8,786 nucleotides of DNA from Deltaproteobacteria bacterium (GTDB lineage: Bacteria > Desulfobacterota > Desulfobacteria > Desulfobacterales > UBA11574), in contig JAFDCA010000245.1 in the NCBI GenBank assembly GCA_019313025.1, positions 1 through 8,786 of the forward strand, read 5' to 3'. This document shows positions 2,015 through 5,983 of the stretch, in pieces. Position numbers and translations under genes: made by a program. The notes beneath the pieces are model-generated. The model was not told where the DNA came from, searched no databases, and saw nothing but the letters and a program-made list of their open reading frames with translations. Within the stretch, counting starts at the first letter, position 1. Every line of letters begins with the position of its first letter.

Positions 2015-3787
2015 TCATAGATCGGTGTATCCCAATTTAGAAAGAATATTGTCGTAGGTGCCAAGCAAAAGTTCCATGATGGCTGTTTCGGATGTCTCTT
2101 TTAGAACATCCTCAACGAACAAGGCGGCATCTTTAGCATTGATAGATCTAATAATTTTTTTAATTGCCGGTATTGATTGAGGATTCATACTTAATTTGCG
2201 TATTCCCAACCCCAATAGAATCGGTATATTCACAGGGTCTCCCGCCATTTCTCCGCAGATGCAGACTTCCACATCGTTTTTTTTTGCAATATCGGCGACA
2301 TATTTGATCATTCTTATAATCGCAGGGTTAAGCGGTTGATAGAGATGTGCAACCTGTGTGTTGACTCTGTCAACCGCCAGAGAATACTGGATAAGATCAT
2401 TGGTTCCAATACTAAAAAAGTCAACATCCTTTGCCATCACATCTGCCATAATTACGGCGGAAGGAACTTCAATCATTATTCCGACGTCTATGTTGTCATC
2501 AAACAATATACCTTGTTTATCCAGGGAATCGGCTGCTTTGTTTAAAATCTTTTTGGCAGCAAGGACTTCATCATGGCATGAGATCATGGGGAGAAGAATT
2601 CTGACAGGACCGAATGCAGAGGCCCTTAATACGGCTCTGAGTTGAGTTTTAAAAATATCCGGGTTTTTTAAGCAGTACCGTATACCTCGAAGGCCCAAAA
2701 CAGGATTTTTTTCATCCGAATTTGAGGCATAAGAAACCACTTTGTCACCACTGATATCTAATGTTCGAATCGTAACGGGATGAGGTGCCATTACTTCTAC
2801 GACATCCTTGTAACTGTCGAACAGATCATGTTCATCCGGAAAATCATTCCGGCTAAGATATTGAAATTCCGTTCGATAAAGTCCGATTCCATCTCCGCCG
2901 TAGTTTATTACTGATACAACTTCTTCAGGGAGCTCAATATTTCCCATAACTTCCAGTTTGACACCATCGGTTGTATCGGCTGGGAGATGACTGCTTCGGG
3001 TAATTACAGCTTTATGTCTTTCGTAATTGGATTGCCGTTCTTCGAACTGGATAAGGGTTTTATCGGTGGGATGGACAATAACAATTCCTTCGGTTCCATC
3101 TACAATGATAATGTCGTCGTTTTTTATTAAATGTGTCGCTTTTTCAAGACCCAAAACTGCCGGTATTTCAAGTGTTCTGGCGATGATGCCTGTATGCGAT
3201 GTCTTTCCCCCAAGATCCGTTATCAGTCCTTTAATCTTTTCCAGCTGTATCTGACTCGTTTCTGCAGGAGAAAGGTCGACCGCCACAAGAATAACCCGTT
3301 TTCCAATAGAACCAATATCCAAAGTTTCTGCTCCGATCAGATTTTGCATAATACTTTCAGATACTTGAATTATATCTGCCACTCTCCCCTGCAAATAAGG
3401 GTCCGGCATATTTCTGAATATGTTTTTAACATTCGATACGACTTTTTTAAGGGCCCATTCAGCATTTACCAGTTCTTTTTCTATAGTTTCGACGGTTTTG
3501 CCATAAAGCATCTTGTCTTTATACAAGACCTTGTGAGTTTCAAGTATATGGATGTGCTGTCGCAATTCTTCAGGGGTTGCTTCAATAATTTCTTGAAGCT
3601 TGTCTTTGGCACGCTTTACGGCAGATTTAAACCGCTTGATCTCATTTTGTAAGTTGTCTTTACTAATGAAGTACTTATCGACAACCTCTACACCTTCTTT
3701 TCCGACCAGATATGCTTTGCCAATGCAGATACCCGGAGAGACATTGATGCCGTGCAGTCGTATTTCACCCTCTTTGGTACTCAACAT
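2015..3787 (-). CDS. ptsI: Phosphoenolpyruvate-protein phosphotransferase (PTS Enzyme I)
   Basis: Enzyme I takes phosphate from phosphoenolpyruvate on a histidine and passes it to HPr, in the cytoplasm. The 590 residues have the full domain order: N-terminal HPr-binding helical domain (about 10-140), swivelling phosphohistidine domain with GGKTSHTGIIAR (His198), and the C-terminal PEP-binding barrel. The barrel has GLYRTEF (Arg305), GLRGIR (367-370 region), FFSIGTNDLIQY (about 458-468) and CGEMAGD with the catalytic Cys511. Length and all key residues look intact. The start is ATG 3787 with GGAG 11 nt upstream, overlapping the end of ptsH. ptsH ends 6 bp before, so the two are an operon. No EIIB/EIIC sugar permease is visible, which suits a regulatory (nitrogen-type) PTS or one whose EII genes lie elsewhere. 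Confidence 0.97.
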   Translation of the reverse strand: MLSTKEGEIRLHGINVSPGICIGKAYLVGKEGVEVVDKYFISKDNLQNEIKRFKSAVKRAKDKLQEIIEATPEELRQHIHILETHKVLYKDKMLYGKTVETIEKELVNAEWALKKVVSNVKNIFRNMPDPYLQGRVADIIQVSESIMQNLIGAETLDIGSIGKRVILVAVDLSPAETSQIQLEKIKGLITDLGGKTSHTGIIARTLEIPAVLGLEKATHLIKNDDIIIVDGTEGIVIVHPTDKTLIQFEERQSNYERHKAVITRSSHLPADTTDGVKLEVMGNIELPEEVVSVINYGGDGIGLYRTEFQYLSRNDFPDEHDLFDSYKDVVEVMAPHPVTIRTLDISGDKVVSYASNSDEKNPVLGLRGIRYCLKNPDIFKTQLRAVLRASAFGPVRILLPMISCHDEVLAAKKILNKAADSLDKQGILFDDNIDVGIMIEVPSAVIMADVMAKDVDFFSIGTNDLIQYSLAVDRVNTQVAHLYQPLNPAIIRMIKYVADIAKKNDVEVCICGEMAGDPVNIPILLGLGIRKLSMNPQSIPAIKKIIRSINAKDAALFVEDVLKETSETAIMELLLGTYDNILSKLGYTDL

Positions 3788-3793
3788 GTCTGA

Positions 3794-4075
3794 CTATTCT
3801 CCAAAACCACTTTCAATCAACTGAACCAGGTCATTTAAAATCCCAAGATCAGATGGATCATCAATTTTTAATGTAATCATGGACCCTTTTGGACAGACCA
3901 GTGTAAGGATATCGATAATACTTGAAGCATCCGCCGTTTTTCCGTCTTTGATAATCCACACCTTTGATTTTACGTTTTGAGCCAGCTTGGCTATTTTTGC
4001 TGCGGATCTGGCATGAATCCCGAGATCGTTTGTTATGGTAACACACCTTGAAAGTTTATTTGCTGAATTATGCAT
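3794..4075 (-). CDS. ptsH: Phosphocarrier protein HPr
   Basis: HPr is the small carrier between Enzyme I and the EIIA proteins. From ATG 4075 the product is 93 residues. LGIHARSAAKIAKLA carries the phosphorylatable His21, and DASSIIDILTL holds a serine (Ser52) at the place of the regulatory Ser46 of Bacillus-type HPr. The usual HARPA motif has Ser in place of Pro here (HARSA). I chose ATG 4075 because GAGG lies just upstream and the family starts close to this point. An in-frame TTG at 4102 would add nine residues (LFCFIQRT and flanks) that look like leader, not protein. It is first in the ptsHI pair. The 600 bp upstream hold no leftward gene, so the promoter should lie between 4080 and 4680. 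Confidence 0.93.
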   Translation of the reverse strand: MHNSANKLSRCVTITNDLGIHARSAAKIAKLAQNVKSKVWIIKDGKTADASSIIDILTLVCPKGSMITLKIDDPSDLGILNDLVQLIESGFGE

Positions 4076-4104
4076 CGTCCTCTGGATGAAACAAAAAAGC
4101 AATT

Positions 4105-4608: not shown

Positions 4609-4679
4609 ACAATAGCCTGAATTTTTAAGAAATATTTATTGCCCTGTTATTGCATTTATATTCTTGGTTAGGAGATCTC

Positions 4680-4907
4680 ATGGCGAATAAAATATTGATT
4701 TTCGGAAAGGATACCTGACCCTATACAAATCAGGCTCGTGAAGCTTTTGCGAAGAAAGGTCAGGAAGTTAAATACGTTAATGTTAAGACTGATGCCAGAA
4801 AAATGAAGACCATGTTGGAATATTCCGATGGCGTACGAAAGGTTCCGGTTATTGTTGAAAAGGGCCAAGTTACCATCGGGTTTAATGGCGGAACGTGAGG
4901 TGTTTGA
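4680..4907 (+). CDS. Glutaredoxin-like small selenoprotein with two selenocysteines (UXX-star type)
   Basis: Read with UGA as selenocysteine, the gene encodes 75 residues: MANKILIFGKDTUPYTNQAR at the N-terminus and VPVIVEKGQVTIGFNGGTUG, then V and stop, at the C-terminus. Residues 13-16 (U-P-Y-T) replace the C-P-Y-x redox motif of glutaredoxins. The K-V-P-V-I-V-E segment (54-60) matches the cis-proline strand of the thioredoxin fold. G-F-N-G-G follows, and the protein ends U-G-V-stop. That U-X-X-stop ending fits what I recall as the UXX-star (seleno)protein family 1, so a thiol/selenol redox role is likely. The start has TAGGAG 6 nt upstream. Both UGAs (4716-4718, 4896-4898) carry SECIS-like hairpins at identical spacing. 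Frame, length and conserved fold all break if UGA is read as stop. Neighbouring redox partners are not visible. Confidence 0.88.
4714..4764 (+). promoter_or_regulatory. SECIS-like element for the first selenocysteine codon
   Basis: Thirteen nucleotides after UGA 4716-4718, AGGCT (4732-4736) pairs with AGCTT (4742-4746, one G-U) around the 5-nt loop CGTGA, which contains GU as bacterial SECIS loops do. An outer perfect 7-bp stem CCTGACC (4714-4720) / GGTCAGG (4758-4764) includes the UGA itself. It lies inside the coding region, as bacterial SECIS elements do. Confidence 0.65.
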
Positions 4908-4928
4908 GTAGATCGGCTGTAGGTCGAT
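4896..4928 (+). promoter_or_regulatory. SECIS-like element for the second selenocysteine codon
   Basis: Thirteen nucleotides after UGA 4896-4898, ATCGGC (4912-4917) pairs with GTCGAT (4923-4928, one G-U) around the 5-nt loop TGTAG, again with GU. Spacing and loop size equal those of the first element. The hairpin lies past the stop codon at 4905-4907, which a SECIS for a Sec codon three codons before the end must do. Confidence 0.65.
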
Positions 4929-4935
4929 ATTTTAG

Positions 4936-5100
4936 AGTGTCCGTCTATAAATGGTCTTTTTGCCCCAATATCTGCGTTAGGCTCAAAAAATAATCCTCGG
5001 AATATTAATATATGACGACTTGTCACAGTACTTAACGGGGTGGTTATTTTTTTCGCATGTCTTGATATGGGACAAAAAATTTTATTTATGGATAGACACT
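4936..5100. mobile_element. MITE-like repeat, copy 1 (165 bp)
   Basis: The ends are imperfect terminal inverted repeats: AGTGTCCGTCTATAAAT from the left against AGTGTCTATCCATAAAT read inward from the right. Similarity extends inward through a T-rich run to GCCCC/GTCCC. The body matches the second copy at 5827-5969, including the exact 18-mer TAATCCTCGGAATATTAA (4991-5008). This copy has about 22 extra bases near 5015-5040. It encodes no protein and starts 7 nt after the second SECIS hairpin. No target-site duplication is evident. The non-autonomous element type is inferred from the ends, the size and the two copies. Confidence 0.65.
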
Positions 5101-5173: not shown

Positions 5174-5824
5174 ATGGAAAAGCAATATATTGTAGATGAT
5201 TTAAATATCGGTGAAGCCTGGCGGCTTTTTAAGATCATGGGAGAGTTTGTTGAAGGCATTGATACGCTTAATGAAATAGGCCTTGCGGTCAGTTTCTTCG
5301 GATCTGCAAGAGTTAAACCCTCTGATTCAATTTATAAAAAAACTGAAAAATTGGCCAAGCTTTTTGTAGAAAACAACTTTGCCGTGATTACAGGTGGAGG
5401 AGGGGGGGTGATGGAAGCGGCCAATAAAGGTGCGGCAGAGGCAGGGGGCACCTCCGTCGGGCTGAATATCATTCTTCCGTTTGAGCAGAAACCGAATCCT
5501 TTTGCCAATATTAAAATCGACTTCAAATACTTTTTTATTCGCAAAGTCATGTTCGTTAAATATGCTATGGCGTACATCATCCTACCTGGCGGTTTCGGCA
5601 CCCTGGATGAACTGTTTGAAGCGGTTACACTGATTCAGACCCACCGAATAAAGCCTTTTCCTTTGATTCTGGTTGGCTCGGACTACTGGGCAGGGCTCAT
5701 TGATTGGATAAAAACAAAACTGCTTTCCGAAAAGCGGATATCTCCAGAGGACATTGAAATTTTGCAAGTCATGGATGAGCCTGAAGAGATCGTCAAAGCC
5801 GTACAGAAGGTGATTATATTATAG
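5174..5824 (+). CDS. LOG-family protein (TIGR00730-type nucleoside 5'-monophosphate phosphoribohydrolase)
   Basis: The LOG (Lonely Guy) family cleaves cytokinin-type or plain nucleoside 5'-monophosphates to base and ribose 5-phosphate, in the cytoplasm; bacterial members often act on AMP. The 216 residues show a Rossmann-like fold with FFGSAR (41-46), VITGGGGGVMEAANKGA (71-87), an arginine-lysine pair in FFIRKVMF (123-124), and the family signature PGGFGTLDE (138-146) with its catalytic-region Glu146. Length is normal. The start at ATG 5174 has no good Shine-Dalgarno sequence and the 73-bp gap after the left repeat shows no clear promoter. The gene is bracketed by two copies of a MITE-like repeat, and its stop codon touches the right one. 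The final residues may have been set by that insertion. The substrate here is not deducible. Confidence 0.9.
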   Translation: MEKQYIVDDLNIGEAWRLFKIMGEFVEGIDTLNEIGLAVSFFGSARVKPSDSIYKKTEKLAKLFVENNFAVITGGGGGVMEAANKGAAEAGGTSVGLNIILPFEQKPNPFANIKIDFKYFFIRKVMFVKYAMAYIILPGGFGTLDELFEAVTLIQTHRIKPFPLILVGSDYWAGLIDWIKTKLLSEKRISPEDIEILQVMDEPEEIVKAVQKVIIL

Positions 5825-5826
5825 AT

Positions 5827-5969
5827 AGTGCCTGTCCATAAATGGTTCTTCTGCCCAATATCTTCGTTATGCTCAAAAATTAATCCTCGGAATATTAAAC
5901 ATATGCCTGTGGTTAATTTTCTCGCATGCCTCGATCTTGAACAAGATATCTCATTTCTGGAAAGACACT
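5827..5969. mobile_element. MITE-like repeat, copy 2 (143 bp)
   Basis: Same family and orientation as the copy at 4936-5100. The left end AGTGCCTGTCCATAAATGG and the right end, read inward as AGTGTCTTTCCAGAAATG, are terminal inverted repeats; two to three flanking bases (GAT/ATC) extend the symmetry. It shares the 18-mer TAATCCTCGGAATATTAA at 5881-5898 and the CTCGCATGCCTCGATCTTG region with copy 1, but lacks copy 1's central extra segment. It begins 2 nt after the LOG stop codon. A 66-codon frame inside is not supported as a gene. Confidence 0.65.
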
Positions 5970-5983
5970 ATCGAGTGTTTTTT
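5961..5983 (+). terminator. Rho-independent terminator after the LOG gene
   Basis: ACACT (5965-5969) pairs with AGTGT (5974-5978) around an ATCG loop. The stem can extend outward through a G-U and three A-U pairs, and a run of five T follows. The left arm is the terminal GACACT of repeat copy 2, so the terminator is part repeat, part flank. The stem is short in its G+C core. Confidence 0.5.

Follow-up and report, generated by a model that had tools for sequence, protein, structure and literature searches.

Does a stretch of DNA in which a standard gene list finds nothing on the sense strand conceal a gene for a short protein with two selenocysteine (Sec) residues? This question is raised by positions 4680..4907 on the forward strand of an 8,786-nucleotide (nt) stretch of contig JAFDCA010000245.1 from a deltaproteobacterium (the window, in the following), where an earlier note had read a glutaredoxin-like gene through two in-frame UGAs. 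The sequence and the coordinates given there proved to be correct. Translation of 4680-4904 with UGA as Sec yields 75 residues with U at positions 13 (UGA at 4716..4718) and 73 (UGA at 4896..4898), and the frame is indeed intact only if both of these codons are read as Sec. Sec13 lies in the motif U-P-Y-T, at the site of the nucleophilic Cys of glutaredoxins, and Sec73 in a C-terminal U-G-V-stop, the gene ending with UGA 4896, GGU, GUU and the terminator UGA at 4905..4907, 9 nt past the Sec73 codon. The product is free of Cys, so that the two Sec are its sole residues of this kind, and a ribosome-binding-like AGGAG, assigned from its letters, is located at 4670..4674 (+), 5 nt upstream of the ATG. 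Under translation table 11, no sense-strand open reading frame (ORF) of at least 60 amino acids covers the gene, and the ORFs that do overlap it, with 66 and 88 amino acids, are antisense, which bears out the expectation that standard calling would miss it. Comparison with relatives showed this gene to be a member of UXX-star family 1, in which two in-frame UGAs are kept as Sec (or Cys), each with its own hairpin resembling a selenocysteine insertion sequence (SECIS), while a third UGA stands where stop codons interchange. We regard this identity and the decoding as a double-Sec gene as nearly certain. A well-supported gene of this kind, which one standard ORF list misses, is thereby added.

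The family assignment is carried by curated models. The query had C substituted for U and extended over the terminator UGA, counted as residue 76, which the match did not include. It reached 117.2 bits against NF041114, the model of UXX-star selenoprotein family 1 (E 2.8e-34; cut-off 72), over profile positions 1-70 of 70. With this E value and 238 homologous proteins, a chance resemblance is very remote. The UXX-star identity suggested in the earlier note is now backed by a curated match, by both UGAs being conserved in relatives and by two SECIS-like elements. The gene shares with NF041114 a score far above the cut-off, U-x-x-T, two Sec and the C-terminal U-x-x-stop; there is no difference in kind, and the window gene additionally has a UGA terminator and a LOG-family gene downstream. 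NF041212, a broader subfamily model for Uxx-star family glutaredoxin-like (seleno)proteins which includes the window gene, was also passed (86.5 bits, cut-off 66), the equivalog NF041114 scoring higher, and the Pfam Glutaredoxin model gave 47.3 bits (cut-off 22.9). The models which by their names describe related glutaredoxin-like domains with a C-terminal U-x-x-stop, i.e., UXX-star families 2 and 3 and the HUGP/GUXX-star fusion, remained below their cut-offs (NF041211, family 2, 52.5 bits vs. 100; NF047338, 48 vs. 97; NF045501, 44.2 vs. 325). The same holds for glutaredoxin 3 (TIGR02181, 35.9 bits vs. 90); its CxxC motif is absent as well, Thr standing three residues after the nucleophile. 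Glutaredoxin 3 and NrdH-type glutaredoxins have the same fold and nucleophile position, but the window product lacks the second motif Cys and, in the structure model, the last helix, and carries a C-terminal Sec instead. In the portion of the 2026 review PMC13188914 that was available, the selenoprotein glutaredoxin likewise has Sec at the glutaredoxin nucleophile, but as a single Sec in UxxC, in contrast to UxxT with a second, C-terminal Sec in the window product. The same portion tabulates NF041114 as UxxT with two Sec and cites PMC2398784 as the source for the family, though no line naming the family was met in the available portion of the latter. Consequently, the presence of two Sec in a protein of this size, which had been put forward as deserving attention, is already on record; the window gene is a clear new member of a catalogued family whose double Sec was known.

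Whether both UGAs are maintained as Sec codons was judged at the DNA level in 81 genes, comprising the window gene and the best 80 of 185 relatives from genome contigs; these were picked by similarity to an alignment headed by the window gene, and the shares given here are consequently not a census. Codon 13 is UGA in 55 genes and a Cys codon in 26 (UGC 20, UGU 6), codon 73 is UGA in 79 (UGC and UCA once each), and 55 genes carry UGA at both sites. U or C is thus conserved at both residues with the sole exception of one Ser at 73, the frames of the 80 relatives all continue beyond codon 13, and the motif [U/C]-P-[YFH]-T is present in 81 of 81. On the tree, residue 13 exchanged between U and C at least seven times, whereas Sec73 is almost fixed. 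Outside positions 13 and 73, 79 of the 81 proteins contain no Cys or Sec. A second draw, less dependent on the query, covered 198 genomes of the phylum to which the genome of the near relative L001 belongs (this genome included) and 14 control genomes: a member over the cut-off was found in 51 of the 198 and in none of the controls. Among the 52 matches, by our count of the rows, 38 had two in-frame UGAs, 13 had one and one had none, and five of the 13 one-UGA matches stop at profile position 66 or 67, short of the Sec73 site. A search for relatives in viral contigs found none.

These codons also bear on a different decoding, in which UGA would mean Trp (genetic code 4) or the gene would be decayed. 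Many of the best 120 of 238 homologous proteins carry W at both Sec places, as expected under such a code; we take these residues to be UGAs that gene callers translated under another code. Within the 81 genes, the only alternatives to UGA are Cys codons at site 13 and, at site 73, a single Cys and a single Ser codon, Trp codons being absent from both. Furthermore, 35 of the 161 genes counted next to them terminate in UGA, and the codons near residues 19-21 are under a SECIS-type constraint described below. Both the Trp and the decay reading were rejected as contradicted by the family codons at 13 and 73, and hardly any likelihood is left to them.

Several observations concern the exchange at these sites. 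L059 (Cys73) and L069 (Ser73), the two genes without Sec73, are neighbours on the tree (support 97/48) and both have an insertion ahead of the last strand. The pairs L017/L029, L062/L045 and L058/L072 are close relatives which differ in having Cys13 or Sec13. The Cys13 genes L017, L062 and L067 retain the loop letters CGTGA without the third-base stem pair and look as if they had been recently converted from Sec13.

Selenocysteine decoding further demands a hairpin behind each UGA. As a standard, the bacterial consensus in the available portion of PMC13188914 was used, i.e., a loop of 3-9 nt with G in the first two positions, a stem of at least 4 base pairs (bp), a distance of 16-37 nt from the UGA and a free energy of -7.5 kcal/mol or lower. 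Our rule-based scan required at least two G-C pairs, left the energy rule out and allowed only 16-22 nt at codon 13. RNAfold placed both hairpins where the earlier note had seen them: SECIS 1 at 4732..4746 (+; 5 bp, loop CGUGA at 4737-4741) and SECIS 2 at 4912..4928 (+), the latter entirely beyond the stop codon. The note had described each as beginning 13 nt after its Sec codon and as having a 5-nt loop. The spacing holds for both and the loop size for the first; for the second, RNAfold predicted the smaller loop GUA, and UGUAG, with its 5 nt, is obtained if the terminal U-G pair is left open. In loop, stem and distance, both agree with the published model (SECIS 1, 18 nt with loop CGUGA and 5 bp; SECIS 2, 20 nt with loop GUA and 7 bp, or 19 nt with loop UGUAG and 6 bp). 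Their energies depend on the ends chosen, ranging for the Sec13 hairpin from -3.8 (4719-4756) and -4.9 (4716-4760) to -14.0 kcal/mol (4714-4764), and lying at -7.4 (4899-4936) or -8.0 kcal/mol (4896-4940) for the Sec73 hairpin. An outer stem of 4714-4720 with 4758-4764 can surround the Sec13 hairpin.

The first hairpin occupies codons 18-22, where third bases and the Arg20 codon are free to vary. Ala19 is encoded by GCU in 41 of 55 UGA13 genes compared with 1 of 26 Cys13 genes, and Arg20 by CGU in 48 of 55 compared with 5 of the 22 Cys13 genes which have Arg. The loop CGUGA is found in 46 of 55 UGA13 genes, all four inner pairs are formed in 42 of 55 (1 of 26 with Cys13), and the third bases of codons 19 and 21 pair in 52 of 55 (12 of 26), with U-A (40) and C-G (11) substituting for each other; these counts and the corresponding Fisher values ignore kinship. 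When partners were shuffled among the UGA13 genes, the observed number of pairs was reached in 0 of 5000 trials. Taken together, the codons around residues 19-21 show what appears to be a SECIS-type constraint when codon 13 is UGA, and vary when it is Cys. After codon 73, the rule-based scan detected a model-like hairpin in 75 of the 79 UGA73 genes; the distance between UGA and loop was 16-25 nt in 74 of these. A scan selecting the best hairpin, the score of which is to be judged only against shuffles, gave a median that 1.9% of shuffles reached, with no hairpin in L064 (one of 81 rows).

The machinery for Sec incorporation was sought in 18 relatives' genomes, mostly metagenome assemblies. Over the curated cut-offs, SelA was matched in 17, SelB in 14, SelD in 16 and tRNA-Sec in 13 (12 genomes at 71.9 bits or more and G010 at 50.3), compared with 1, 2, 2 and 5, respectively, in 14 well-known control genomes; since the SelB and tRNA-Sec models match in every genome below the cut-off, over-cut-off matches alone were counted. 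The genome of the near relative L002 had SelD only, which itself contains an in-frame UGA.

A number of results weigh against this picture. Some of the 18 genomes did not show all of the sel genes. By the adapted published rules, a hairpin is missing after codon 13 in 12 of the 55 genes with UGA there, and after codon 73 in 4 of the corresponding 79. Folding of five stretches compared with shuffles gave z values of +0.86 and -0.61 around hairpin 1, -1.42 and -1.01 around hairpin 2 and -0.28 from the stop UGA, and a synonymous re-deal of codons yielded a mean z of -0.36 for UGA13 genes and +0.1 for Cys13 genes. The hairpins are thus not singled out by folding energy, and the support for them is comparative. 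When kinship was taken into account, seven independent U/C contrasts remained, of which, on average, 3.1 had the third-base pair going with U and 0.0 had it going against U, the pair being unchanged in 3.9; the contrasts in which the pair differs all point in the expected direction, seven being too few for significance. Finally, residues 72-75, the tail of the structure model, lie outside the matches.

The third UGA raises the question of where recoding ends. At the third codon after 73, the 81 genes have TAA (34), TGA (28), TAG (17) or a sense codon (2; L064 and L067, whose frames end one codon further on), and among the 79 Sec73 genes, 27 including the window gene have a UGA stop 9 nt past the Sec codon, the 28th UGA ending belonging to L069 with Ser73. 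It could be argued that this UGA is also Sec, so that the protein would carry the redox motif U-G-V-U near its C-terminus and have an extended tail: it lies near the SECIS, the tail V-D-R-L is open before a UAG in the window, and one protein with 96% identity has the same tail letters. Against this, TAA or TAG stands at the site in 51 of 81 genes, with TAA in the nearest genome relatives L001 and L002, the UGA state was gained or lost at least 20 times on the tree, and the extensions past it are conserved neither in letters nor in length. In addition, 26 of the 27 Sec73 genes ending in UGA have a loop that follows the Sec UGA by 17-22 nt, which satisfies the 16-37 nt rule, and the stop UGA by 8-13 nt, which does not, the latter distances being the former minus 9 by construction; in the 27th gene, L042, the rule-based best hairpin lies over the stop codon, and the codon 73 scan found one at the usual place. 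A third Sec was rejected because of the interchanging stop codons, the unconserved extensions and the loop being too near, and is very improbable. Instead, the frequent gain and loss, TAA in L001 and L002 and the unconserved downstream sequence indicate that the third UGA behaves as a true terminator. UGA is not avoided as stop at this place, accounting for 28 of the 79 stop codons found there, compared with 35 of 161 for six neighbour gene families in the same loci.

From this we infer that a single hairpin past the stop separates two UGAs by distance alone. SelB loaded with Sec-tRNA would bind each hairpin and decode the UGA 16-37 nt ahead of the loop, while the last UGA would be too near to the loop (10-11 nt) and would be read by release factor 2. 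We lean towards regarding UXX-star genes as rulers provided by nature for the bacterial Sec code: in about one third of the genes compared (27 of 79), UGA would mean Sec and three codons later stop, with hairpin distance as the sole discriminator. The ease with which the stop UGA is gained and lost would then indicate that, in these organisms, less than 9 nt suffice to divide recoding from termination, and a short protein otherwise free of Cys would hold a self-contained Sec-Sec couple. The adjacent UGAs raise the testable question of how SelB and release factor 2 share them, and the 81-gene set allows the Sec/Cys exchange at 13, the near-fixed Sec73 and the Sec-UGA with its stop-UGA to be compared. 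The earlier note did not remark on the Sec-UGA beside a stop-UGA. No mention of it or of the LOG neighbour was met in the literature searched, of which some sources were available in part, and an earlier mention in Haft and Tolstoy (2025) or Haft and Gwadz (2023) is possible.

As to function, the product would be an oxidoreductase of the glutaredoxin fold which lacks the last helix and has no resolving Cys in U-P-Y-T. The likeliest chemistry would be an internal Sec13-Sec73 couple, with Sec13 as the attacking residue and resolution by the C-terminal Sec73 via an internal Se-Se (or S-Se) bond; for this catalytic step we see an even chance. An oxidoreductase-type role in the loose sense, taken together with the identity and the decoding, is very probable. 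An alternative option keeps the gene and its decoding but has both Sec serve jointly as ligands of a soft metal or a metalloid (Hg, As, Cu), with no redox couple. According to the available portion of PMC13188914, UXX-star Sec may serve as metal ligands or meet unknown substrates, and the scarcity of other Cys or Sec (79 of 81 proteins) would also suit a two-ligand metal site. The glutaredoxin fold and the catalytic site U/C-P-[YFH]-T, present throughout the family set, speak against it, as do the commonest neighbours, i.e., genes of the phosphotransferase system (PTS) and of the LOG family, SmpB-like, ABC transporter and acyl-CoA-synthetase-like genes. To our knowledge, none of these are known as metal-resistance genes. 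We therefore consider metal binding unlikely, if well short of negligible, and prefer the internal couple.

Neighbour counts across the 81 loci are lower bounds, since some contigs end close to the gene. Downstream in the window, a LOG-family (TIGR00730) nucleotide phosphoribohydrolase-like gene is located at 5174..5824 (+), relatives of which are the next downstream gene in 31 loci and the second in one. Divergently oriented are a PTS enzyme I-like gene with phosphoenolpyruvate-utilising enzyme domains at 2015..3787 (-; divergent neighbour in 37 loci) and an ORF at 3794..4102 (-; 27 loci), named HPr-like from reading of the sequence; a SmpB-like gene, named likewise, is divergent upstream in 26 loci. 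LOG adjoins the UXX-star gene in seven loci where enzyme I was not found, and enzyme I occurs without LOG in 12; among Cys13 genes, LOG is present in 3 of 26 and enzyme I in 0 of 26. Other lineages have different neighbour genes. The adjacency of LOG and UXX-star could reflect an operon or inherited order and is no evidence of function. Scans of the window for promoters and terminators gave results near those of shuffles (10 promoter-like sequences vs. a mean of 7.4; two terminator-like vs. 1.8).

The LOG-family gene is bracketed by two copies of a short element, 4936-5100 and 5826-5972, about 72% alike. Its terminal inverted repeats are imperfect (70% over 37 nt and 86% over 21 nt), and it looks like a miniature inverted-repeat element. 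The first copy starts 7 nt past SECIS 2; the second is a 96% match to L001 3469-3614, where the first matches at only 72%. Moreover, two other settings recur, with gene names again taken from reading: L025, L032, L059, L060, L069, L070 and L080, mostly deltaproteobacterial, lie near nucleoside diphosphate kinase-like, RlmN-like and endonuclease III-like genes (not all at each locus), and in six Planctomycetota loci (L031, L048, L051, L054, L061 and L079) the UXX-star gene is followed after 82-130 nt by a radical-SAM-like gene in the same orientation.
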